Assembly: GCF_020921035.1 (NCBI RefSeq)
Contig: NC_063155.1
Span: 7,301,001 to 7,365,000 of the forward strand
DNA: 64,000 nt
From: Rhodamnia argentea
Lineage: Eukaryota; Streptophyta; Magnoliopsida; Myrtales; Myrtaceae
Direction of reading: 5' to 3'
In this document: piece by piece, positions 5,355 to 60,748 of the stretch
How positions within the stretch are numbered: position 1 is the first letter of the stretch
Layout of the letters: each line of letters begins with the position of its first letter
Notes under the pieces: model-generated
The model's input: the letters and a program-made list of their open reading frames with translations, nothing else
The model's database searches: none
Told to the model about the DNA's origin: nothing
Program-made: the position numbers and the translations under genes

Positions 5355-5643
5355 AATTGGATTTATACCACAAAAAACCTCAAATTGATACACCTTTTAT
5401 GAATAGAAGGTAAAAATCTTAAATGTATACATCCGAGAATTATCATGTGTCATCCAACTTAACAATTTGGAGATATAATTTTACGGAAACTAACGGAAGG
5501 TAAATTTGTCACATGTATACCGATTTGAGGTAAATTTGTCAAATGTGTATCGGTTGTAGGGTTTTTGGTGGCCAAAAAAAAAAAAGTTCGGAATAAATTT
5601 GTCACAAGAATACCAGCTTGGGATTTTTTGTGGTATTAACCCA
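5355..5643. repeat. Inverted-repeat element, family A, copy 1
   Basis: The left end reads ATTTATACCACAAAAAACC and the right end reads TTTTTTGTGGTATTAACCC, which are near reverse complements. Inside are AT-rich segments with 'gtaaatttgtcacatgtatacc' type words in alternating orientation. The same end sequences recur near 15.3, 26.7, 43.0, 45.7 and partly 56.5 kb, so this is a dispersed miniature family. It lies just beyond the 5' side of the gar2-related gene. No coding capacity. Confidence 0.7.
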
Positions 5644-35298: not shown

Positions 35299-35695
35299 AC
35301 GGGAAAAATACACTAGAAGTGCCATAACTTTTGTACGGCGTTCACTTGAGTGCCATAACTTTCAAAACTTTTACTTAAGTGTCATAACTTTTAAAAATCG
35401 TTCACTTGAGTGCCATGTTGACGTGGCAGCTAGAAAAGCTAACGTGGCGGCCGGAAAAGTAAGCGTAGCATGCCGGAAAAGTAACCGTAGACACCCGAAA
35501 GCTGATGTGGCATGCCGTAAAGGCGACGTGGCAAGCTGGAAAAGTGCCGTAGCACTCAAGTGAACGATTTTGCTCCGACATAGCACTCAAGTGAACGATT
35601 TTTGAAAGTTATGGCACTTAAGTGAACGTTTTGAAAGTTATGGCACTCAAGTGAACGCCGTACACAAGTTATGGCACTTCTAGTGTAGTTTTCCC
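35299..35695. mobile_element. Mutator-like miniature element with long inverted repeats
   Basis: About 397 bases. The two ends are near-perfect inverted repeats of roughly 70 bases (left from GGGAAAAATACACTAGAAGT, right the inverse ending in CTAGTGTAGTTTTCCC) and weaker inverted similarity goes on towards the centre. CTCAATTG flanks both ends (35291-35298 and 35696-35703), with the ninth base A versus G. An 8-9 bp target duplication with long terminal inverted repeats starting in G fits Mutator-like miniature elements. The centre (35415-35550) is made of 'acgtggca / ccggaaaagt' words. No transposase. Confidence 0.75.
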
Positions 35696-38142: not shown

Positions 38143-38409
38143 TAGTCCTCGTAATGCTTGTGAACTGTATTAACCAAGACAATGGCATTCATATGCTTCT
38201 CCATTTACTTCATGAGTATTAACTTCCATGTATAATTTGACATCCATGTACATCGTTATACATAAATGTAATGCGTGCTACACATATACGGAGGACACAC
38301 TGAGGAATACAGAATGCTGCAAAATGCAGATCTAAGTTTATTTCCCCTAGAGCAAGGGGTGAGAGTCCCATATGATATGGCAGCAGAACTTTCCCTTTAT
38401 GTTAAAGCC

Positions 38410-38899
38410 TTAACTTAGATGGCGGAGCATCCATGGAGGAAGAAGTGTACCGGCCCGCGGCTGAGTCAGGTTTTCTCTGTCGTCGTGCCTGTTGTGTCTC
38501 GCTTGATAAGTGCCACCACTGCATAATTTCACACACATCTTATTGTTTAGAACAGGCAATGGAAACCAGCTAATCTGCTAAACTACTTGCAGAACATAGC
38601 TTTCAGAATTTAGATAATTGAAACTGGAGATATGTCCCAATTGTCAACTGCACTAGATGCATTCACTTGACTAACTTTATAAGCTGCATTCAATCTGAAA
38701 TGCTACAAGACTCAGGGAAAAAAGTACCTCATACCGAACCCTTTACTATAATAAGTACTTGAGAAGTGCTATACTGTTGTGTAGAGAAAATAGTATGTTT
38801 TAGAGATTATCTCGTCAGTTTCACGTGGCAGAACGAGTGTCGGTGTGCAGACATGAGAGCATCCTAGCGTATGTGCCAGCATTCGAGAGATTGAAATCT

Positions 38900-38939
<40 letters not shown>

Positions 38940-41900
38940 GATGTCCAGAGATGGCAAGTTGAGGGGTCGAATAACAGGTGAGTCAAGTGCATGGTCTTGC
39001 TGCTCCCACTGAGCTTGCAGGGCTAGGGCCTTCTCCTTCTCCTTTACCTGTTTTCAGCAAAATAATTTCAAAAAGCCATGAGCATGTACTCTTTTTCTAA
39101 ACATATATCTCCAAAAAGGTGATTTTACTTAAATATAATGAAACTAAAAGAAACTCTTCAGGCAAATTCATTGAAGCAATGCTAATGCTTCACGAGATTT
39201 TGAGAAATTTTGCTACATCAGTACCATTACCAAAAAAGAATACCATCATAACCCTTACACCAACCATTTGTCAAGTCATAGCTAACAAATATATGTCTCT
39301 GGTCAAGCAACGGTGAAATACGGTCATCGTACATCGGGAAGCTAGTTTTTGGACGGGTTATAGAGAGCTAGCTCAAATGACTACCGACTTCTTTTAATTT
39401 GTCATATGTCCAGATGTATTTGACTCAAAAGGTGAGTCCATTGAAGAAGATTAATTACTCACTTTCTTTGTAAGCAGGTTGTTTTGCTCCTGCAATGCCC
39501 TATCCTGTGGGAAGACGAAAACAGTCAGCAGATCTTCAACCACTATACTGGTATCTGGAAAAACTGTTGCAGGGTTTAAATTTGTCCTCAACGTGATGAA
39601 CATGGTCAATCACAAAACAACAATCATATATTGGTCAACATCTCTCACCCATCTAAAGCCCTATTATTTGTGCTTGAGCCACTCTAAATATAGTCAACAT
39701 ATTTGCCTATCTAGATTAAAAAGATAGCCATCATGTTCTAAGTATCACGTGAAAATTTTCTTCTACTGTGCCAACAAATTTGATAGGCATACCTTTTTCT
39801 GAAGCACTGAGATTGATTCATGCATGAGCTGATTCTGTTCAGCAAAGTTTAGAGTGCAATCAGCCACACCCAAGACCTGACAATAGTAACATTGGCTTTC
39901 AAATGAATCTCGCTTGTACGTACCTTTCTCGATCTTATGTGTTTAAGAGCAGAATCAAGTTGCTGCTCCAAATTTTGCAGGTCTTTGAGGCTCAAAGAAT
40001 CAAGATCTTCTCCCATGAAATGCCTGAAACAATCAAGCAAATATCGAGATTCGTTAGCTTCGAATAATTTTCAGTTCTGGCAGTAACTTCGTCTCAGTAC
40101 ACATATACCTATGATTTCTCTGTAAAACTTCAAGTCTGGCCTTGAGCTTAGCATGCTGCAAAGTCCAGCTACCCTGAAACACTCAAACGGATTTCTCTCT
40201 TAGTGGATATAGAAGCTTCTGCGATCGGGTAGAGAAAGCCACAGCTAAGGTACGGGCTTGGAATGATAGCAAAGAGAAAAAGAAATCAAATACGAAGAAC
40301 CTATTCTTTATTCGTGCTTGTTTCTACTACTGATCTAGGATTTAGTGCTAACTGATTTGTCATAGCAAAAGGAGCTCTTTTTATTTATATGTGAAACTAT
40401 AACAAGATGCCATTCTTGCTTCTATGATTCTTGCATATCAAATTTATCAGCAAATTTAAAGACTTGCACGTCCAGTGATATGCACAGATTCTGCACATTG
40501 CAGCTCGATGGGTAAGTACTAAAAGTCGAGCGGAACATCGTTGTTGGAATTTATGATCCAATTTCTAGAAACATCTAGCATGGATGAGATATTCGGCATA
40601 TATATTTGGGGAATAGTCTAGATTTTTGTTGAAATATCGAAGACATTCCTGAAAGTAGCATTGAGATATTCGTAGAAAAGTCTAGATATATCTAGGAGAA
40701 ATCTAAGATATTTCTAGAAAAGCTCCACAGAATATTGAAGACATATAAAAAGAACAGAAGAAGAGGCTAATTCTTTAGGTCTATCAGAAGTTTCTGGTTG
40801 GGTGTCTTACTATCGATTCCGTCTCACTTGCAAGAACTTGGCGCTCCGCGTGCGAGTATCTTTCATAGCGTTCGAGAATTCTCTCCATGCTGTGAAAAGA
40901 AGCAGAACCGAAACATGTGTTACGAAGTAAGTACGTTTAATAAGATGAAGCGTCTACAAGATAGAAAATTGAAATAAGACTTCCAAATAAGATCATAACC
41001 ACATAGGCAGATGGAAGTATGGTATTGCAGTTCCCTCACAAGTCTATATATATGTAGAACGAGATTATTATCGAATTGGACACGTACTTAGCCTCACGAC
41101 TAGTTGATCACTGTCGATGAGCACTTGAAAGCAGGCTTGAGAATAGATTAAAAGCTGTTAATCGACAAGATTATGAACGAGCTTAAAGAGCAAGTTTAAT
41201 CATGAGCCACGCTCGTAGCTGGAGTTTTGCTTTACTACGAAAATGGAGGTCATCAAAAGTGGCAGCATGAGGGGCATTGAAGACGACCCAGTACGCAATC
41301 CGGACAATAGTGATCAGCATCAGTGGCCATCATGGGAGAGGAACAGAAAGAGAAAGTTTTTCTTGTACAATAGTTACCCCAAGTCAAGATAGAAATGCCG
41401 GATGTCTGTCAACTGGGTCAAATGGTAATTTCACGCTCGTACCACCACCACCCTCTTGAGCCATCACGTTCCACAAGCGACGTTGTCACAGTTTGGAGTG
41501 AAAATGTATGTTCCAAAGATATAGGAGGATGCTTACATCATCCTTCCCTCAATTTGAGAATCACAAATTAAGGATTTGGTTCACTACTTATGTTTTCTAA
41601 TCCTTCCCGGCCCCGTCTTCTTCACTACTAATCTCCATCTTCATTGGAAAATCAGTGTTAAAACCTGTTAATGAACTTCTCAGGGAAAATCTTTTGGAAA
41701 TAATATCATGATTCCTACCATTTTCGAGAAAGTTCATGCTTTCCATGGTATTCCTCTAGAAAATTTACTTATAGTCAAAACAAATTTCACCCAAAAAAAA
41801 AAAAAAAAAAAAAAAAGCTCGAGAAGATGAGTTGCGCTGCACAATTCCTAATCTACTGCCTGAAAGCAAGTTAATTGCACTTATTCTAAGCATAAACTAC

Positions 41901-44156
41901 AAAACCTGTACTTTCTAGCCGAATTCATGCAATTAGCCTTAACGTTCAAGGTTAGACCCAAGTCCAACCAACCCCACAAGAGAAATTGCATCTTCAGCCT
42001 CTTCTTTGTACAGACCCTGATAAGAGTTCAAACTCCAGTTGCTATATAGAGGATTTGCCTACACTTCTTAATCCCTTAGCTGTCCTTGATCACGAATGCA
42101 TTATCACGAAAATGATTCATTTAGATCGAAGATGAAATTACAAGTTGAGAAAGGCATATTCTACTTTCTTGACATCCAAAAAGGAAAGTTGATTCATCAT
42201 GGCAAATTGTGACGGATGGGAAACAAAAGCATATAATCATTTTCACTGGAAAGTGAGATTCTTTTGTCTTCTCATTGCAAGAACCAAATTAATCACAACA
42301 ATTCACTAGGATAGTCAATGTTCTCCGATGCATATCGACACAAATGGTCACTGAATTTCAGAAAAATATGAGATTCAATCCATTAACTTTTAATTTGTCT
42401 AGTTTAGTCCCTGAGTTATTGCGCTCATATTCAATTTAGTCTTAATTATACAAAAATGTACAATATTGTTATTCTACTAATTCAAGTTTAGGGACGATAT
42501 TGACCCATTTTTATATAGTCTAGTGACTAAATTGAACATGTGTCAAAAGTTCATAAACGATATTGCACATTGAGCTAAATTTTAGGAATCATAATAAATA
42601 AATTAAAAGGTTAGGAAGCATGTTGCACATTAAATCATAATTTTGTATCATTTTTTCCTTACCCAGAACAACAGTTTAGCCGCATGAATCCACTGACTCA
42701 AGCGGTGGAAGAAGACAAATGAACCAAGACATGTCTCTTCAAACAAGAAAACACATCACATCATGATTAAACTTCTGGGTTATCCAGAAAGGAATTCTAG
42801 CTGCGTAAATAGCCTTCCCTACGAAGAAAGCTCCAGCTGGATGATTAGGCCGAACGAATCATCCTCTCCAAACTTCAAAAATCACGCGTTGGAATAGTAG
42901 GGAACAGATTGGAATGCTAGTGAACAGATCCACCATCGCTTGCAAACTTGCCGAGTGCTCTGTGCACAATATTTAGTGTGTGCATAGAGTCACCATCCGT
43001 CCATTCAGGAGCATAAATTAGAGTTAATACCATAAAAAATTACAAATTTATTTATTTAAAATAAATTTATCTCAAATTATTTTTTTTATCCTAAAAAATT
43101 TCAAATCGATGCACTTACAACAAATTTATCTCAAACTACCAAAAATTTGAAGTTGGTACACACATGATAAATTTATCTTTGATTAGTTTTCATTAAATTG
43201 GATTAATTTAGTGAAAAAACTTTCAAATTGCTACACAAATGACAAAAGGATGGTAAAAATTCTCAAACTGTCATACTTTATTCAAATCAACAATTTGACG
43301 ATAAAATTTAATGAAAATTAACGAAGAATAAATTTGTCAAAAGTGTATCAATTTGAGATTTTTATTGATTAAAATATTAATTTATGATAAATTTATTACC
43401 AATGTACTGGTTTAAAGTTTTTTTTTTAAAGTATTAACCTTTTAAAATACAGACCCGAATGCTGTTTAGATTGTAGAGTGCCCTAACATCAGTTAACAGC
43501 AAGCATGCTTTCTTCATATCCAGTTCTGATTATACGCAACATCTCCGAGGACGACGAAAAAGATGGTGGAGATGAATTGATCTGTTCAAAACTGAGCCCT
43601 TTTATGCAGAATTAAGAGCTCTTTCACCACGTTACAGATGGAGTTTATATTCGCGTTGCGCCTTCGCACTTCAAAACGCGACATGCTTTCTGCTTCATTT
43701 TTCATCAGGTGCAAGCACAAAGGAAAAAAAAACTTTCTGGAATTGGTAAAGAAACAGCAATCACGACACGACACCTCTGAATGCCCAAACCTGAACACGC
43801 AAAGAAACAAGAAGCCACGAAAACCGCGAGGGCGAGAGGACATTCAAAGGAAATCAAGAAGTGTTCCAGAACGGGGCGGGCGGGCGGGCGGGCGGCGGAG
43901 ACGGCGGGGAAGGAAGGAAGGAATGGTGATGGAGGCGGGGTTTGGGGGGGTTGGGTTGGAGGGAACGTTACCAGGAATCGGAGGAGTACTCGAAGAGCTT
44001 GCCCTTGGTGGAGAAGACGACGAGGGCGACCTCGGCGTCGCAGAGGACGGAGATCTCATGGGCCTTCTTGAGCAGACCGGTCCTCCTCTTGGAGAAGGTG
44101 ACCTGCCGGTTGATCTTGTTCTCTATCCTCTTCAGCTGAAGCCTGCCCCTCCCCAT
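38410..44156 (-). CDS. FUL-like: MIKC MADS-box factor, FRUITFULL/APETALA1 clade
   Basis: Eight exons: 44156-43972, 40889-40811, 40173-40109, 40023-39924, 39834-39793, 39504-39463, 39047-38938, 38518-38410. Lengths are 185/79/65/100/42/42/110/109, the usual pattern of the AP1/FUL group, giving 243 residues. The MADS domain (1-61) starts [20 protein letters not shown] and ends FEYSSDS. The I and K regions include [53 protein letters not shown] and [10 protein letters not shown]. The C-terminus carries LPPWMLRHL, the paleoAP1/FUL motif, and lacks the CFAA end of euAP1 proteins, so I place it nearer FUL. Such proteins bind CArG boxes in DNA and control floral transition, meristem identity and fruit development. 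Intron 1 is 3.08 kb. Intron 7 begins inside a CT microsatellite (donor AA|GTCTCT). The gene lies 5.6 kb downstream of a SEP gene in the same direction. Confidence 0.95.
38901..38936. repeat. (GA)18 microsatellite at a splice donor
   Basis: On the sense (minus) strand this is a CT tract that starts at intron position 3 of intron 7 of the FUL-like gene; the donor GT is at 38937-38936. It is uninterrupted. Confidence 0.95.
41793..41816. repeat. Poly-A run in intron 1 of the FUL-like gene
   Basis: 24 consecutive A on the plus strand, poly-T in the sense of the gene. Confidence 0.9.
43022..43440. repeat. Inverted-repeat element, family A, copy 4, within intron 1
   Basis: Starts GAGTTAATACCATAAAAAATT and ends with the inverse AAAGTATTAACCTTTT. 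It lies inside the first intron of the FUL-like gene, an intron that often holds control sites in MADS genes. The copy is more AT-rich than the others. Confidence 0.6.
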
Positions 44157-44460
44157 CCTCTCCCCCGCCGCCAAAACGGCAAGAAACAAAACAAAGAGAG
44201 AGAGAGAGAGAGAGATGGGGTTGATGTTCTGTCTGGTCTGGTCTGGTCTGGTCCCTAGGGTATATTCTTGGAGGAGGAAGGAGCCGGGAGCGATCAACGG
44301 CAGGGGGACCAGGGAAGAAGAAAGAGCAGAGTGAGAGAGGAGGAGTGGTGGCTTCTGAGTGCCATATGTGGAAACGGCAGTGGCTAAAAACAGGCCTTTT
44401 TCGGAGGTCGGAGGTGGTTTTCGGATCCCGGCATTGGAAAACCGGGCCGGTTTCGTCAAC
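44157..44460 (-). promoter_or_regulatory. 5' leader of the FUL-like gene with two simple repeats
   Basis: Upstream of the start codon there is a CT tract (44195-44215, 39-59 bases upstream on the sense strand) and a five-fold GTCTG/CAGAC repeat (44231-44253). GA/CT tracts are known binding sites of plant BPC proteins; whether this one is used is inference. No clear TATA box was chosen. Confidence 0.4.
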
Positions 44461-44699: not shown

Positions 44700-45240
44700 A
44701 TGTAGACGTGGCCGGTTCCGGTTCGGAACCGCCGATTCTTAGGCCCAATGGCTCTTTTCTCCCGAGGCTCCTCTTTTTTTTTTTTTTTTTAACGGGTAGG
44801 AATCGGCCCGAAACTGGAGATTTCGGGCCCACGGTTCCATTTGGCCATATCTATGTGTATATGATAAGTGTGTTATAAGTCTTAAAATTTGTCACGAAAG
44901 TGCGATTGAGTTCTAAAACTTTTAAAAAGTGCAATCAAGTTCTTAAAATTGTCGGGAAGTGCAATTGAGTGCTAAAATATTCAAAAAGCGCAATTGATAG
45001 AATGACTTGATTCCATCAATTTGACAAGTTTTTAGGACTCGATTGCATTTTTTTAAAGTTTTAGGACTCGATCGCACTTTTGTGACAAGATTTGAGACTT
45101 GATTGCATCTTTTGAAAAGTGATAGGATTCCATTGTGCTTTCATGCCAAGTTTTAAAACTTAATTATAACTTTTGAAAGTTTCAGAACTCAATTACACTT
45201 TTCGTGACAAGTTTTAGGATTTCCGGTGCACTTATCCCTA
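44700..45240. repeat. GAACCGG-type remnant followed by family E element
   Basis: 44700-44840 carries CCGGTTCCGGTTCGGAACC and related words. From about 44866 to 45240 there are alternating 'aagtgcgattgagttctaaaac' and inverse 'gttttaggactcgatcgcac' segments, the family E pattern also seen at 58.16-59.19 kb, but without a GC-rich core. Confidence 0.55.
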
Positions 45241-49711: not shown

Positions 49712-52700
49712 TCAAACCATCCATCCCGGAATGAATCCGGCGCCGTTTTGGCTTGAAACCATAGCATTCATCTCGTCCAGACATGCCGGATTGTATCTGA
49801 AGAGTAAGAACATAAACAAGAAAAAAGAAAAGAAAGTCCCATCGGTCATTCGTGGCGTCACGATGCTATAAGATGTCTGTACATGTAGTCTTTAGTGAGT
49901 AAGTGGAATGAGGATGCGAGTAGTCACCCAATTTGCAGCGACAGGTTGCTGTCCATTGGGTGGAAGAACCCTTCCGGTTGAGGAGGAAAGAGGCTACATG
50001 GAATGCCGCCACCGCTGCCGCCGGGACCTGCTACTTCCCAGGCAAGTTGAAAGGGAATTTGCGGACCCGCTTCTTCCAGCTAATTGTGAAGTACAGAATT
50101 TTTCAAATTCAATCAATAAGTGTTTTTGAAGCAGTGGTATCACGATGATGAATCGAATTCGATTATTGTATTTTCCCACTAATCCACCATGCTTACTGCA
50201 TCCATTAGTCTGCTTGTCATCAAGATTTCTAAACTACAGTGAGGTTTATGCCATAAGCTCAGGTTTAGGAAGCGGATACAATGGGAATTACACAATCAAA
50301 AAGCTATAAATTTTCCAGGAAAAGCAACTTCTACGAGTCTTATGCTATCTACCAATGCTCTAAGCTTGGCAACCAAATGAATGGCAATGGAATAGTTCTA
50401 CTAAAGATTTCATGATTCAAAGAGAATGTGAGCATTACAGGGACAGCATACTAAGCTATCTTGTCACATCACGAAGTAAGTTTGTGTGATTGGCCCCAAA
50501 ATGCGACTTGCGAGTACCACAAGAGTCTTCCGTTGGTAATTTTCTTCGAAGGACGGCACGGCAACTCTAGGGAGAGTATGCGTGCGTGCACATGTGAGAG
50601 GAAAATGCCGCACAAGAAACAAGATTTAGGGTGCTAAAATAGCAATAATTTGCGACAGAAGCTATAGTCTGAATGTTCAATCGAGTCCTTCCTAGTTTCA
50701 TATTCCACCATTTAATTGCAGGAAACCATTTTTCATTGCAATGATGGGTAGCTTCGCATTTGCAGACTCTGAGGACAATGTGTTAATCTCAGTTCCAGGA
50801 ACTAATAATAATGCGAGCTCTGTGAGGACAGTGTATCAAGTTATTCTGTTTATGTCTGTGTGTCGATATGTAACTCCATGCCGGTTAAATAGTTGAAACA
50901 TTCAACAGCACTCAGTATAAATCGTGAGTTTGTAATTAATACATGGCCAAAATGCACAGCAGGAAAGATTCAAGACAAAAAAATACTGCAACATGAATAG
51001 GAGGCGAGAAGTGTGATTAGGTGCCATACCTTCCTCTTAAGGACTTTGTTGGTCTCTAGTAGCATGTGCTCCTAAGTAGACAGACAGCATCCATCATTGA
51101 GCAAGGAGAAGAACAAAAGAAAGGGAGTGAAACCTACTTCCAATCTAAAATGCCCGATAATAAATTAATTCGTACCCTGTTCTGGAGATTGGCGAGTTGA
51201 TCGAGCATGAACTGGGTCTGCAAGATTAATCAAGAGCAATCTAATCATCCAAGCGATAGCAGGTTACATTACAAAAATATGCTCATGACTCATGGGAGCT
51301 TCCTTTCTGATTACCATCTCTCTTTTCACAAGTTACCTTTGTCGACCGGATGTGCTTCAATGAACTCTCCAGCTGAAGCTCCAGATGCTCAAGCTCTTTA
51401 CTGTCTAGTGAACCCAAATCTTCCCCAAGCAGGTTCCTGTGACTCACTCATATCCAACCTCCAGTTAGTAATCCATGGAACTTTGATCACAGTAATTAAT
51501 GCATAATTTTTTGAGAATGTTGTAGGAGAGGCGGACGTATAAATTTAGATTAAAAGGGCAAGAAGAAAATTTCTGTGAATCTTGTTATCGGCCTTATGAT
51601 AGCTCGAAATTATTTAAACAAAACACAAAGTGACATGTATTTTTGCGAACATGCAAGATCAATTTGACACTTGTGGAAATTTTATTATCAGATTCACAAT
51701 AGTAAATGCTGTACTTACTTTGTCCTGGGATTTTCATGTACTTAATCTCAAAAAATTGCCAATCGTGCCATGAACGTACCAACTCAAACTGCAGATAGAG
51801 AGGGATTCAAACCTTTGAGATCGCTGGAGGACCTCAACTCTTGCTTTTAGCCCTAAGTATTCCTGGTAGCTGCTCTGCTTGGCAATATAACTAGGATTAA
51901 AGCTCCATATACTAAACAAGTTAGCACAACAACCTGATAAACACTGGCCCTAGTAAGTAAATAAGCACCTTACTAGGGATAAATCCTGCTCTAATCTTTT
52001 TGTAGTGGTCAGGTGGTATGCTCTAAGCCAGGTTTCGCGCACCAAACTATGTTCACTTCGTTATTTTCGTCACTTTCATAAGCGAATCATATAGAAATGG
52101 ATTTATTGAAACAAGATCTCTCTCTCTCTCTCTCTCTCTCTCCCTCTCCCTCACACACAAATACACATACACATGCGGGCGGGAACGTGCCCAAAGAACG
52201 AAGAAAGAAAAGACCAAAGGTACCTGTGTCTCATCGATTGAGCGGCTTGTGTTGAGTTGTGCACCATAGCTGCACTTTTGGTACCTTTCAAGTGTTTTCA
52301 TCATGCTAGGGCAAGAAGGCGAGTGGTATCAGGAAATTAACACAAGATTGAGCAAAAGAGCACTAGGTTATTACAAGAGATGGAGAATATGGGAGATGAC
52401 ACAAAAACCATGTTATGCTTCAAAAGATGCCCGGTTCAAATCCAGGAGTACATAGAAAGGCACATGCGTGTATCGAAACCGATACTTAGTAAATTACACG
52501 CCCGTACTTCTCATTGCCCCCGAAGAGAAACAAGATTACGCATACTTTTAGCGATCCTTATTGATGATGATGATGATGAGGTTGGGCCTACCTTTATTAT
52601 CAAATGCCAATGCGAATAGAAAGGATGTATGATAATTATAAGACAATCAATCACGTCTAGTCCTCTTAATCAATCAATGCGAAAATTAAGGTCAACTCTA

Positions 52701-54698
52701 TTTAGTATGTTGTCAAATGATGGCTAAATAACTCGAGTTGAACGACACATGCTAAACATCTTGAGGTATAGCGTTCGAAGATCCAAAAGAGCTATTATTG
52801 GGACGGGAGGGATAGATAATGTAATCTAATGGCGGGGTGAAGAATGATCTATCTAATGAATCTCTATTGCTTGCCCTATGTGAATAGCAATAGATCCTCA
52901 TTCTATAGAAGTTAATTGTCATTAGCGGCCTTTAAGGATGGCTTGTTTTATTTTTCCATTTGGTGGATATATAAGTTACATAATGTGTGTTTTTCTCTAA
53001 TGGCTTAAATTTTTAGAACAAAAGATTCAATATTGCTTCTGTAACACACCGTCAAAGAATAAGTTTTCCACAATTCTTTCTCCCCCGACTATCTAGTTTG
53101 CATTCTTAATTAAGAAATAATATGAAATTAGTTTCTCTAACAGATTTAGTTTTTAGAATAGATGGTTGCACATTCAGTTCCAACACTTGCATAATATGTT
53201 CATATTACATGTCTCCGATCCATTCTGTTAATCGATTTTCCCTTACTCCAATAAACCTCGTTAGTGAATTCGAAGCATCAAGTTGCATTTGGTAACAACC
53301 AAAGAAAAGGCAAACATTTAACCTCAACAGGGTCAATCAAAAATCAAGAAAAGGGTGTGAATCTCGATTGCAACCCACGCGATCATGCCTCGAGAATATA
53401 TGGTCGTGCCTCGAGAATATATGGTCAAAAAAGCCTTAAATCAGGATGTGTCGTGTAAAAATCTGAACCCGTTCCATTAATTAGTCTATAATGTTTTAGT
53501 ACATTACAAAATGTAGGGAAACAAAGAAATATCCAGGACTCCAATAAACACTGTTCCAAACAAATAAACATGCAGGACGCTAATACACACTGTTCCATCT
53601 GGGTCGAACAACGTTATACATAACAGAGTAACCAGAAAACAAGGAAACCCCATGCACGCTGAAGTTTCAAAAGCAGGTCCAGGCCAATGCATTTGATAAA
53701 TGGCAACAGCTTGAAGAAACACAGTAGTTCGAGAATGAATTTGCAGACAGCTTGAGTTGACTTTTTCCCCCTTGTTTTAGCTTGTAAATTGTAATCAAGC
53801 CGCAAATTTTCACTGTGCATGCTTCTAGGGTTTTCATTGTTCACCAGACAAAAGAAAGAGTAGTCTTTCCTCTGTCGTTGCAGTCATGTCAAATTTAACA
53901 GCACAAGTGAAGTTGTTCAGTGAAGTATTGCAGATATATTTACTGGAGAAACATCTGATCTTGAATTGGGTTTCCATGGCGAATGTCAGCGGAATTGACA
54001 GGGAGAAAATATCATACACCATGCTACTGAAAGAAACCCTTTGAGGGGTTGATCACTAATCCTGGAAACCCTTTCCATGAGCCCAAATGAGATAAAAAAA
54101 AAATTTATAGGAAAAGGAAAGCCACGGACCAAAAAAAAAAGGGGATAAGATCTGAATCTGATCGTTAGTGGACCGAAGAAGAACCATTTTCTGAGAGCTT
54201 TGCCTTGTTTAAATCTCTAGTCTGAGAAGATCAAAGACACCAAGAACCCAAAAAAGAATAACAAAAAGTTTGATGGGTGCTCAGAGTTTCAAAAGACAAG
54301 ATCCAACACCAAGAGATCTAGCAACCCTCCTGATAAATGGGGAAAAACCCACAAGCAGAAAGCTAGAAATAAAAAATAAAATAAAGAAGGAGGTTTTCTT
54401 GATGATGAGGTGTTCATGTTGAAGAGGGTTAGGATTGCAAAAGAGAAAGCGGGTGATCAGATTCAAAGAATTCAAGGAAGAGATCAGAGCTAGAGCAGGA
54501 GACAAAAGAATACCTAGAGCTGCTGCAGAACTCATAGAGCTTGCCACGGCTGGAGAAGATGATGAGAGCGACCTCGGCATCACAGAGGACCGAGAGCTCA
54601 TAAGCCTTCTTGAGGATCCCATTCCTCCTCTTGGCAAAGGTCACTTGCCTGTTGATTTTGTTCTCTATCCTCTTCAGCTCCACCCTCCCCCTTCCCAT
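49712..54698 (-). CDS. SEP-like: MIKC MADS-box factor, SEPALLATA clade
   Basis: Eight exons: 54698-54514, 52305-52224, 51874-51813, 51436-51337, 51217-51176, 51071-51030, 50079-49928, 49796-49712. Lengths 185/82/62/100/42/42/152/85 give 249 residues with every phase matching. The MADS domain starts [20 protein letters not shown] and ends KLYEFCSSS. Then follow [69 protein letters not shown] and EHMLLETNK. The C-terminal part has both SEP motifs: [19 protein letters not shown] and [12 protein letters not shown] at the very end (usual form NGFFPGWML/V). SEP proteins bridge other MADS factors in DNA-bound tetramers for floral organ identity, and some drive fruit ripening. The tandem with a FUL/AP1-type gene suggests the SEP1/2/4 rather than the SEP3 lineage. 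Intron 1 is 2.2 kb. A CT tract lies 39-83 bases upstream of the start codon. Confidence 0.95.
52117..52142. repeat. (TC)13 microsatellite in intron 2 of the SEP-like gene
   Basis: Perfect dinucleotide repeat, about 80 bases downstream of the donor of exon 2 in the sense direction. Confidence 0.95.

Positions 54699-54736: not shown

Positions 54737-54781
<45 letters not shown>
54737..54781. repeat. (CT)22 microsatellite in the SEP-like 5' leader
   Basis: Perfect dinucleotide repeat, AG in the sense of the gene, starting 39 bases upstream of the start codon. Confidence 0.95.
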
Positions 54782-57404: not shown

Positions 57405-58055
57405 ATTTTAATTAAGGGTCCAAAATGTCCTTATTTTCACAAATAAGATCATGAAGTGGCATTTGATTCGAATAAAAGTCTAAAGTGTCATTATTATTTT
57501 AAATAAGGGCTTGAAATGGTTATACCTGTTTCAAATAATGGCTTGACCTCACCGGTTGGCCAAATATTCCAATCGACCAAGGGCATTTTTGCCAAAATAC
57601 TTTTTTTAATTCAATTTTTAGTTAAATTAAATTAAAATAAAAAAAAAAAAAAACACAAGCGGGAGGCTACCCTCCCTCCCGTGGTCGCAGTCCACCATCG
57701 GTGGGGTGGCAACGGTTGACGTTGGGGTCACTAGTGCCTTGGCGGGAGCCGAGGACCCTATTAACCAAGGGCGAGGCCGATGTTTACCTTTTTTTTTAAC
57801 TTTGTTTTTAAATTTAGAAAATAGTAAGAGGAATAAACAAAGAAAAAATTAAAATAATTTTAAAATAATATAAATGATGAAAATGCCCCTAACTAATTGG
57901 CAACACACCTTTTTTGAGACCGATATGATCACTTCATGCCCTTATTTGAAATAATATCCACTTCATACTTTTGTATGAAATAATAAGGCACTTTAGGCGT
58001 TTATTTAAAATATGATCCACTTCGCACTCTTATTTGAAAATTTCCCTAGACTTTA
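57405..58055. repeat. Inverted-repeat element, family D, copy 2
   Basis: The left end reads GGAAAAATTTTAATTAAGGG and the right end CTTATTTGAAAATTTCCC, inverted. Repeated 'ataagggcttgaaatgg' and inverse 'ccacttcatacttttgtatg' words lie inside. A GC-rich core (57655-57790) contains 'gggcgaggccgatg' type words. Confidence 0.6.
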
Positions 58056-58157
58056 TGGCACTTGCAATTTGATTCTTATTTAATCCGTTGAAACACTTGA
58101 AGCCTTTGTAAAATTTATGTATTGAAAGATTAAATCTTATGAAGCTTATAATATACT

Positions 58158-59192
58158 TTCTAGGGATAAGTGCATCAAAAGTCCTAAAACTTGTCATGAA
58201 AATGCAATTGAGTCCTAAAATTTTTAAAAAGTGCAATCAAGTCCTAAAACTTATCAAATTAGTGCAAACGACTCCTTCCGTTAACACTGTCAATTTATTT
58301 AACAGAAAATGCTAACGTGACATTTTTAAATTAAATTTTCTATCGTACATGGCATTTGTTTGTTCTTTTCATTTCAAATCTTATATAAATCAAATTAAAA
58401 AAACTAAAAAGAAGAACAAATATTAAATTTAAAATGATAAAACAGAAAAAAAAAAAAAATTTACAGGGCAAGGCTTTGCCTCGTCGATGAGGCCGCCCCT
58501 GGTGCTAATTGCTGGAGGGGCCAACAAAGGTCATCAACCCTGGGCGAGAGTGGTCGGCTCTTGCCAGCTTCGAGCAAGGGCCATCATCACCCAGCTCTAG
58601 GTCTCCTCAACCGAGATATGGGCAAGCCTCGCCCGGCTTAAAGAGGGTCATCGGATCTCCCTCGGTGACGCCTCACTCGTGCATAGCGAATATCGCCGGT
58701 TGTCGGTGAGCCGGCGAGGCCTCCCTAGGGGCATGCAATGGTCGCCAACCCCATGGGAGGGTCGGCATCACCAAGATCTAGGCGAGCCTAACCAAGGCCT
58801 AGCAAGGGCCGGCTACCCACCCAAGGCCGGCGACCTACCTCTACGAACCTTTGATAATGAGCATGAGCGGCGACAACCGCTTCTCATCGGCAACGCCCGG
58901 TTTGCCTTTTTTTTTTCCCCCTTTTTGTTTTAGCTTTTTAAATTTGATATTTTAGTCCTTTTTTAGTTTTTAAATTTGATTTAAATCAGATTTGAAAAAG
59001 AAAATAATTACAAAAAATGCCACGTAGGATAAAAAATTAATTTAATAGACAAATTAACGATATTAACAAAAGGACTCGATTGTACTAATTTGATAAATTT
59101 TAGGACTTAGTTATATTTTTTTGAAAATTTTAGGACTTAATTATACTTTCGCAATAAGTTTTAGGACTTTTAGTGTATTTATCCCTTTTTTT
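58158..59192. repeat. Family E inverted-repeat element with a GC-rich core
   Basis: The left end reads GGGATAAGTGCATCAAAAGT and the right end ACTTTTAGTGTATTTATCCC, a clear terminal inverted repeat; the next segments ('cctaaaacttgtcatgaaaatg') also match inverted. The centre (58470-58890) is GC-rich and repetitive, with 'ggcgaggc / gcctcgcc / ggccggc' words; open frames there (66 and 84 codons) are repeat shadows. At 1.03 kb it is the largest member seen. Confidence 0.7.
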
Positions 59193-60336
59193 ATCAAGTT
59201 GGAATTTTGAATAATCCATAGAAAGAATAAGTGGTAAGTAGCTTTTTTGGCTATCAAATAGGTAATGTTGTTTGGCAAAAGTTACTATCCAACTTTTCCA
59301 TCAAATCTTACGTACTACTTTTGAAACACATTATGAAGAGATAGTGAATGATTTTAAATATCAGAATTAGTATATTTGTAAACACTTGAGGTTGCTCAGT
59401 ATTAATAGAATTTGAACATTGAAAGAGAAAAGGCGTAAATAAGTTAAGAAGTCATACGCCTACATTGGCTATTTGTAGCGCGGCAATTCTTCACCCGATC
59501 ACGAACTAGCTAGAATGAGTTAGTTTTCTTCTTTACTTTTTCCACGCTACAACAACGATTGGATGTCATTATACGAATGTTTTAATCAAGCTAAGAAAAC
59601 TTGAGTGCATGAATTGATGACACATAGGTGTTGTCTAGTCTTAGAATTGGACATGAGACACGACATGACTATAGAATTACCAATTTTATGACGAGCTACG
59701 TGAGTATGCAATGATAATTATTTGTGTGTTTATATAGTTATACCTATGATGATTCCCTCAAAAGTAATTTTAGGCTCAAAATCCACTTCGCCCGTGACAA
59801 TCTTCACTAAATCTATCACTATCGCCATCGTGATCCACTTATCTAATCGTAAAAAGCCAAACGAATTCCGAAACCCCGTTTTATCTTGCAATTTAGTCCT
59901 TTTATATGCCATATAAGGAGGAACTTCAGCTCGGATTCGATCGAATATTCCAAATCCATGCATTTCAAATTCAACCCTAGTTAGTAGATCCATCTTAATT
60001 AGCCCCCATTAGTTAGCTACCTTAAATTTAATGATGTGGTTTCAGATTCTCCTAATGGAGCTGGCACCCATCTGTTGGAGGAATAGACATCCCTGAAACG
60101 ACATCTGTGATAGCTACTGGTCCGTGTGTACGCGTGGATGGATCAAGGTCATTGTCATGGCCATGTTCAGCTATTCCATTTGTATGGACACGAAAAGATT
60201 ATACCAAAAGAGGATGAATTGTTCTTTTTTCGTACCCTTTTAATATTTGGAAATCTGGGTATCTGTTAATATTCCTGAAAATTGTTTTTTTTTTTTTTGA
60301 GAAAGTGTTTCTGGACCTTAGGACATGTTTTTCGGG
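59193..60336. other. Intergenic, no gene recognised
   Basis: AT-rich. A minus-strand frame at 59730-59993 (87 codons) and frames at 60.83-61.04 and 61.0-61.29 kb share a TMAI...I segment and might be scraps of one old gene, but I recognise no family. Confidence 0.35.
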
Positions 60337-60748
60337 GCTAAAGTACATTAGAAGTGCCAAAACTTGTGTACAACGTTCATTTTAGTGCCAAAATTTTAAA
60401 AACGATCACTTAAGTGCCAACTTCTTCTAAAAACGATCACTTCAGTGTCAACTCCAATTTGAGCTGACGTGACTTGTCAAAAATCCGACATGTGTTATTT
60501 TTTATTAATATTTGAGCTAACGTGTCTCGGTAGAGTTGACAATGAAGTGATCGTTTTTTTTTAAATTGACATTTAAATAATCGTTTTTAAAAAAAAATTG
60601 GCACTTAAGTGATCATTTTGAAAGTTTTGGCACCAAAGTGGTCGTTTTTAAAAAAAATTAATACTTAAGTGATCGTTTTAAAAGTTTTGGTAATAAAGTG
60701 AGCGCCGTATATAAATTTTGACACTTATAATGTACTTAAGCCCATTTT
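60337..60748. repeat. Inverted-repeat element related to the Mutator-like element
   Basis: The left end reads GGGCTAAAGTACATTAGAAGT and the right end TATAATGTACTTAAGCCC, inverted. Inside, 'gtgccaaaacttgtgtacaacg' and its inverse repeat. The word pattern parallels the element at 35.30 kb ('agaagtgccataacttttgtacggcg'), so the two are diverged relatives. Confidence 0.6.

Follow-up and report, generated by a model that had tools for sequence, protein, structure and literature searches.

Can a dinucleotide repeat serve as the intronic side of a 5' splice site in a floral regulator, and if it does, can its length influence splicing? The question is raised by a FUL-like MADS-box gene located within a 64,000-nucleotide stretch of Rhodamnia argentea DNA (referred to below as the window; this copy of the gene lies on contig C6), as the last intron of this gene opens directly into a CT microsatellite. 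Coordinates of the relevant features are collected in Table 1, where, as throughout the text, a slash marks the boundary between exon and intron. Translation of the assembled exons, including the join of exons 7 and 8 (...LPSLDIN-GGTYQ...), gave an intact 243-aa protein that matches the Pfam families SRF-TF (4.7e-26) and K-box (8.3e-30). The protein therefore has the domains found in euFUL proteins, and near its C terminus it carries LLPPWML, which differs by one substitution from LMPPWML, the sequence given for the FUL motif in PMC4071287. With a MADS domain, a K-box and a C-terminal FUL motif, the window gene resembles the euFUL genes of the AP1/FUL lineage, to which Eucalyptus also contributes: EAP1 and EAP2 are assigned to euFULI and euFULII (PMC4071287).

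Table 1. Positions of the features discussed in the text, numbered along the window unless a contig is named
Feature	Position	Strand	Remarks
FUL-like MIKC MADS-box gene	38408..44156	minus	8 coding exons, 243 aa; exons assembled and translated
Exon 7, 110 nt	38938..39047	minus	ends ...CTG GAC ATC AA, phase 2
Alternative upstream phase-2 GT, TCA/GTGGGA	39008..39009	minus	U1 duplex -3.8; predicted 219-aa protein with exon 7 cut short
5' splice site GT of intron 7, CAA/GTCTCT	38936..38937	minus	upstream of the read-through stop, the sole GT through which a complete exon 7 joins exon 8 in phase
(TC)18 tract	38901..38936	minus	shares its first T with the donor GT; match of 100% in Tandem Repeats Finder
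Intron 7, 419 nt	38519..38937	minus	
In-frame extension on intron 7 retention, K(SL)n...	38769..38936	minus	stop codon starts at 38771; 263 aa in total (computed)
Exon 8, end of the coding sequence, encoding the FUL motif LLPPWML	38408..38518	minus	
Tandem SEP-like gene (paralogue control)	49712..54698	minus	last-intron donor TGG/GTGACT after 49928, phase 2, without CT tract
FUL-SEP tandems	window 54698-49712 and 44156-38408; C7:22974650 and 22995592; C11:15743330 and 15728228		

Intron 7 is of the U2 type, with a GT donor, an AG acceptor (TTATGCAG/TGGTGG) and a preserved coding phase. Pyrimidines make up a fraction of 0.44 of the 18 bases preceding its final AG, the lowest value among the seven introns of the gene. 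Introns of the U12 type are marked by GTATCCTT at the donor and TTCCTTAAC at the branch site; this class was considered for intron 7 and rejected, as the donor agrees with the former at 5 of 8 bases and the best branch match agrees with the latter at 6 of 9. Among the matches listed in a protein search of the assembly, exon 7 and exon 8 of this gene were each represented by one copy. The start of exon 7 (39047) reads CAG/GTAAAG and is donor-like as well as acceptor-like, and a similar sequence, AAA/GTAAAG, is re-created once exons 6 and 7 are joined. Other repeats in the window include a CT/GA tract at 44195-44214, within ~40 nt upstream of the FUL-like ATG, and AT-rich tandem arrays with units of ~30 and ~60 bp at 35318-35678, 44880-45216 and 57930-60727.

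A first-pass annotation of the window had placed the donor of intron 7 by reading phase, and the assembled gene confirms this placement, with the whole of exon 7 joining exon 8 in phase 2 through CAA/GTCTCT. The SEP-like tandem paralogue, located upstream of the FUL-like gene, joins its own exons 7 and 8 in phase 2 (49928/49796), and exon 7 of two FUL paralogues described below ends in phase 2 by homology; these genes therefore support the phase-2 reading of the window donor. The annotation had further stated that no better phase-2 GT lies downstream. This is correct from the CT tract to the in-frame stop at 38771, an interval in which no phase-2 GT and three phase-2 GC dinucleotides are present, but the statement passed over the phase-2 GT upstream at 39009.

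To place the strength of this donor in context, 62 donors of MADS genes, FUL and others, were located by homology and scored, comprising the 3 FUL last-intron donors and 59 others. The set omits donors that could not be placed, namely all those of gene L048, those of L047 past intron 1, some of L043-L046 and, in the SEP genes, intron 2 on C11 and intron 6 on both C7 and C11; two less certain placements, L044_2 and L045_1, were kept, the second of them among the tract-positive controls. The donor had been described as weak for its lack of a purine at +3 and of G at +5, and it was indeed the weakest of all 62, both by a position weight matrix (PWM) built solely from MADS genes (-5.25, with the next at -1.80) and by its U1 duplex (-1.4, with the next at -1.9). 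It is the only one of the 62 with C at +3, and the only one in which G-1, R+3 and G+5 are all missing together. Its longest pairing run in the canonical register is 2, compared to 3 to 9 in 52 other MADS donors. When only 12 comparators from the window were used, the margin was small by PWM (-1.12 versus -0.65) and large by U1 duplex (-1.4 versus -4.5 or stronger), and by a count of hydrogen bonds the donor was not the weakest of the seven in its gene (14, versus 12 for the donor of intron 2). Plant 5' splice sites have been divided into two classes, AG//GU and //GURAG, and U at +4 is favored when U6 is unmethylated (PMC9803359). The window donor, a GU site, does have U at +4, yet AA//GUCUC belongs to neither class, having no G-1, R+3 or G+5.

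The repeat itself had been described as 18 CT units directly after the GT. A pure (TC)18 tract does lie at the donor; this count includes the T of the donor, however, so that 17.5 CT units follow the GT. Slippage of the tract had been proposed to change the bases that pair with U1 and U6, and this proposal was not supported, as positions -3 to +8 were identical at all tested repeat numbers from 4 to 40 and were altered only at 3 units or fewer. Because the sequence offered by a pure dinucleotide tract is GTCTCTCT at any length, repeat length cannot retune U1/U6 pairing. Extended pairing of UCUCU with the AGAGA stretch of U6, for which 5-base matches exist in many registers, was set aside, as it would not be in the canonical register. 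Control of donor folding by repeat length was also considered and rejected, the predicted mean unpaired probability of -3 to +8 being 0.49-0.54 at tested repeat numbers of 10 or more, at both 25 and 37 C. Repeat length could thus act only via CU-binding proteins or via the frame of an intron-retained product. Overlapping CTCTCT words number 15 in intron 7, versus 0 to 1 in each of the other six introns of the gene, and the computed length of the retained product is 230, 245, 263, 232 and 247 aa at 16 to 20 units, respectively. A related case is that of rice Waxy, where the (CT)n microsatellite RM190 is present in exon 1 and the donor of the next intron is variably spliced. The functional change in Waxy is a G/T SNP in this leader-intron donor; taken by itself, the repeat accounted for 74.9% of the trait, but it contributed nothing beyond the SNPs and is described as a linked marker without function (PMC3904453). 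The Waxy repeat lies in exon 1, whereas the window repeat is the donor's own downstream sequence, but the outcome for Waxy calls for caution in assuming that repeat length tunes splicing.

The 346.7-Mb assembly (74 contigs) was searched with the FUL protein, a search that scores only the best candidates, and at least two further FUL-lineage genes were found, on contigs C7 and C11. Both were assembled with 8 exons, yielding proteins of 245 and 243 aa; their exon 8 acceptors, of which the C11 one is less certain, were chosen such that the frame is maintained. The last-intron donors of these genes are TGG/GTATA(CT)11 on C7 and TGG/GTATA(CT)12 on C11. A CT tract is therefore present at the last-intron donor of all three FUL genes found, starting at +2, +6 and +6 and containing 18, 11 and 12 units in the window, C7 and C11 copies, respectively. 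The first 28 intron bases are identical between C7 and C11, and pairwise blastn across the three last introns returned no shared stretch besides these bases and the tract. Ks (NG86) was 1.40 for C6-C7 and 1.35 for C7-C11, and was not computable for C6-C11. A MADS gene of the SEP type lies within some 10-21 kb of each of the three genes, such that a FUL-SEP tandem occurs three times in the genome. Compared to the C7 and C11 copies, the window copy has AA instead of GG at the end of the exon and has no ATA after the GT. From these two copies we infer that the ATA was lost, and, because this spacer is absent, the window copy appears to be a degraded version of an older arrangement of donor plus CU. 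The combination of a donor with an adjoining CU-rich tract probably predates the three FUL paralogues.

The frequency of CT tracts at the FUL last introns was compared with that at the 59 other donors, using one-sided P values that serve only as a guide, the tests being post hoc and the genes related. Runs of at least 8 CT units starting within 40 nt were found at 4 of the 59 other donors versus 3 of 3 FUL last introns (P 9.3e-4), and those starting within 10 nt at 2 of 59 versus 3 of 3 (P 2.6e-4). With a threshold of at least 4 units, the other donors gave 6 of 59 within 40 nt (P 0.0022) and 4 of 59 within 10 nt (P 9.3e-4), again versus 3 of 3. A second comparison set 10 last introns, from FUL, SEP, SEP3-like and AGL6-like genes and one more MADS gene, against the 52 other donors. 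At the 8-unit threshold, tracts were present at 4/10 versus 3/52 within 40 nt (P 0.010) and at 4/10 versus 1/52 within 10 nt (P 0.0017); at the 4-unit threshold, the counts were 5/10 versus 4/52 within 40 nt (P 0.0036) and 5/10 versus 2/52 within 10 nt (P 0.0007). Under the same rules, a GA run followed none of the 62 placed MADS donors.

Tracts outside the FUL genes are described here under the labels SEP-, SEP3-, AGL6- and Rab7-like, which are presumptive, being based on characteristic motifs and not on a family call. One of the two SEP3-like genes (L044, C6:24288950-24294950) has a tract at its last-intron donor, seen from about base 5377 of that interval on, the intron starting as GG/GTAAACCTCTCTC with 27 CT units. 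In the AGL6-like gene (L045, C3:35249400-35255600, minus strand), the last intron starts GG/GTACTCTCTCTTTG with 4 CT units, and a 25-unit CT tract lies shortly past the likely donor of intron 1. The last-intron donors of the three SEP partners, the SEP3-like gene L043 and gene L046 are without a tract. In first introns, the C11 SEP gene (L034, C11:15733500-15743400, minus strand) has 22 CT units starting at +11 relative to its exon 1 donor, and a 19-unit tract lies further into intron 1 of the C7 SEP gene (L033, C7:22974600-22984500). Other donor-linked CT runs were seen in intron 5 of L043 (8 units) and in intron 1 of the C7 FUL gene (6 units).

The explanation that we favor, and to which, with one genome compared, we give an even chance of being right, is that a position-conserved CU-rich element assists or regulates excision of the last intron in FUL-lineage genes. 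The tract would be an intronic splicing element acting at the pre-mRNA level, where CU/U-binding proteins of the PTB or UBP1/TIA type may bind it and help or regulate U1 at the donor. Pyrimidine binding by TIA-1/UBP1 is known to help weak 5' splice sites. Sites helped by TIA-1, PTB and plant PTB1/2 likewise consist of a weak donor followed by a pyrimidine tract. In Arabidopsis, PTB1/2 levels alter the splicing of many transcripts (PMC4598772), and PTB-dependent splicing of a plant reporter required pyrimidine-rich motifs downstream of the cassette exon (PMC10914923). Among the three FUL genes, the window copy, without a spacer and with a very weak donor, would depend most on its tract, and for this reason its last intron would be the likeliest to be retained. 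Changes in repeat length could alter how many protein sites there are and in which frame the retained product is read, leaving the bases paired with U1 and U6 as they are.

The main rival to this explanation is that the tracts are neutral, recurrent microsatellites, in which case CT runs would be born often after donors, expanded by slippage and without function, with splicing in the window either inefficient or rescued by exonic signals. We regard this as a real possibility, although somewhat less than probable. The repeat class is ordinary in the window, since pure CT/GA runs of at least 8 units occur at 6 places there, and A(CT)11 is found at 2199 genome sites on both strands, about 3 per million strand positions, versus 2446 for its reversed control. 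Runs of at least 8 units also lie within 40 nt of 3 of the 52 MADS donors outside the last intron. CT runs follow unrelated donors as well, including several first introns and that of exon 1 of a Rab7-like gene (L041, C11:2433166-2433187, minus strand), which makes recurrent birth near donors possible; this exon ends in LKVIVLGDSG, and its intron starts with GTATAC and then a CT run, matching the intron start of the C7 and C11 FUL paralogues. In addition, the purine-rich GGAGAAGGAGAAGG present in exon 7 of the window gene could act as an enhancer.

How distinctive the donor sequences are depends on the length of context considered. The 22-mer GGTATACTCTCTCTCTCTCTCT has 7 genome sites, two of which are the C7 and C11 FUL donors and a third the end of the Rab7-like exon 1, and its reversed control has 4, so only a longer context is distinctive. 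Such a context, TTGGGTATACTCTCTCTC, has 3 sites in the 346.7 Mb and none for the reversed control, these being the C7 donor, the C11 donor and one place on C10. The C10 site (L040/L062, C10:22777321-22777338, minus strand) precedes a 16-unit CT run. The window-type start AAGTCTCTC... (26 bases) has 80 genome sites versus 121 for its reversed control, and at the 12 of these 80 sites that were inspected, by eye, no splice donor was recognized. Dinucleotide repeats in introns usually turn over fast. Against a neutral origin stand the presence of a tract at the same place in three old paralogues and the exact GTATACTCTC start common to C7 and C11, where the rest of the intron has no blastn match. 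Furthermore, at least 4 CT units within 40 nt are present at four MADS donors that are not those of a last intron, and three of these four belong to first introns.

A further reading, which is not exclusive of the others and which we consider unlikely, is that the window donor is little used. Most transcripts would then use the GT at 39009 (219 aa), skip exon 7 (209 aa, with a frame-shifted end) or retain intron 7 (263 aa), all lengths being computed. The better U1 duplex at 39009 (-3.8 versus -1.4) and the donor-like start of exon 7 are in line with this reading; coding sense is nevertheless maintained over the junction (LPSLDIN-GGTYQ), in the same phase as in the paralogues, which suggests that the full junction is still made. 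Finally, (GA/CT)n repeats are known as GAGA-type sites for BASIC PENTACYSTEINE proteins and Polycomb recruitment, and MADS genes are Polycomb targets. That the tract is such a DNA-level element, its position at the donor being incidental, appears very improbable: CT/GA tracts do occur within ~40 nt upstream of the ATG in both the FUL (44195-44214) and SEP (54737-54780) genes of the window, and CT tracts shortly past exon 1 in the SEP genes on C7 and C11, but CT is on the sense strand near the donor in 3/3 FUL genes, and the lack of GA runs after all 62 donors fits RNA better than DNA.

If the tract is a CU-rich splicing element, as we favor, the product of a retained intron 7 is also of interest. 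By translation, both the MADS and the K domain persist in this product, and exon 8 gives way to K(SL)n or GYTLSLSLS..., such that retention would exchange the FUL motif for a Leu-Ser tail. Decay dependent on exon junctions is not expected, because the stop would fall in the last intron with no exon junction downstream. On this strand, CT repeats encode alternating Leu and Ser in every frame; an LxLxL pattern would therefore arise at any repeat length, and the LSLSL of the retained tail is a putative co-repressor motif of the LxLxL, EAR type. The tract may then have been kept for two roles, as a CU element setting last-intron removal and as LSLSL coding sequence that, when retained, turns an activator-type FUL into a repressor type, an idea we hold to be highly doubtful. 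Eucalyptus EAP2 offers a possible parallel. Kyozuka 1997 is reported to describe two EAP2 proteins, one long and one short, that arise from differential splicing at an intron, and the short form reportedly leaves the long form after residue 197 and stops after 206. The window protein would diverge after residue 207-211, and a link between EAP2 splicing and intron 7 is only a lead. The short EAP2 form is also said to have accelerated Arabidopsis flowering all the same, and this would argue against a repressor form.

Searches of open-access papers brought up no report of a FUL gene with a CT repeat as a donor. The present analysis corrects the view that the length of a dinucleotide repeat at a donor tunes pairing. 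What this locus offers instead is a CT repeat at the same donor in three paralogues, whose Ks is near 1.4 or beyond reach, and which is a candidate splicing element in floral regulators; the window copy, having no spacer, may serve as a natural experiment on the extent to which a donor can rely on such a tract.
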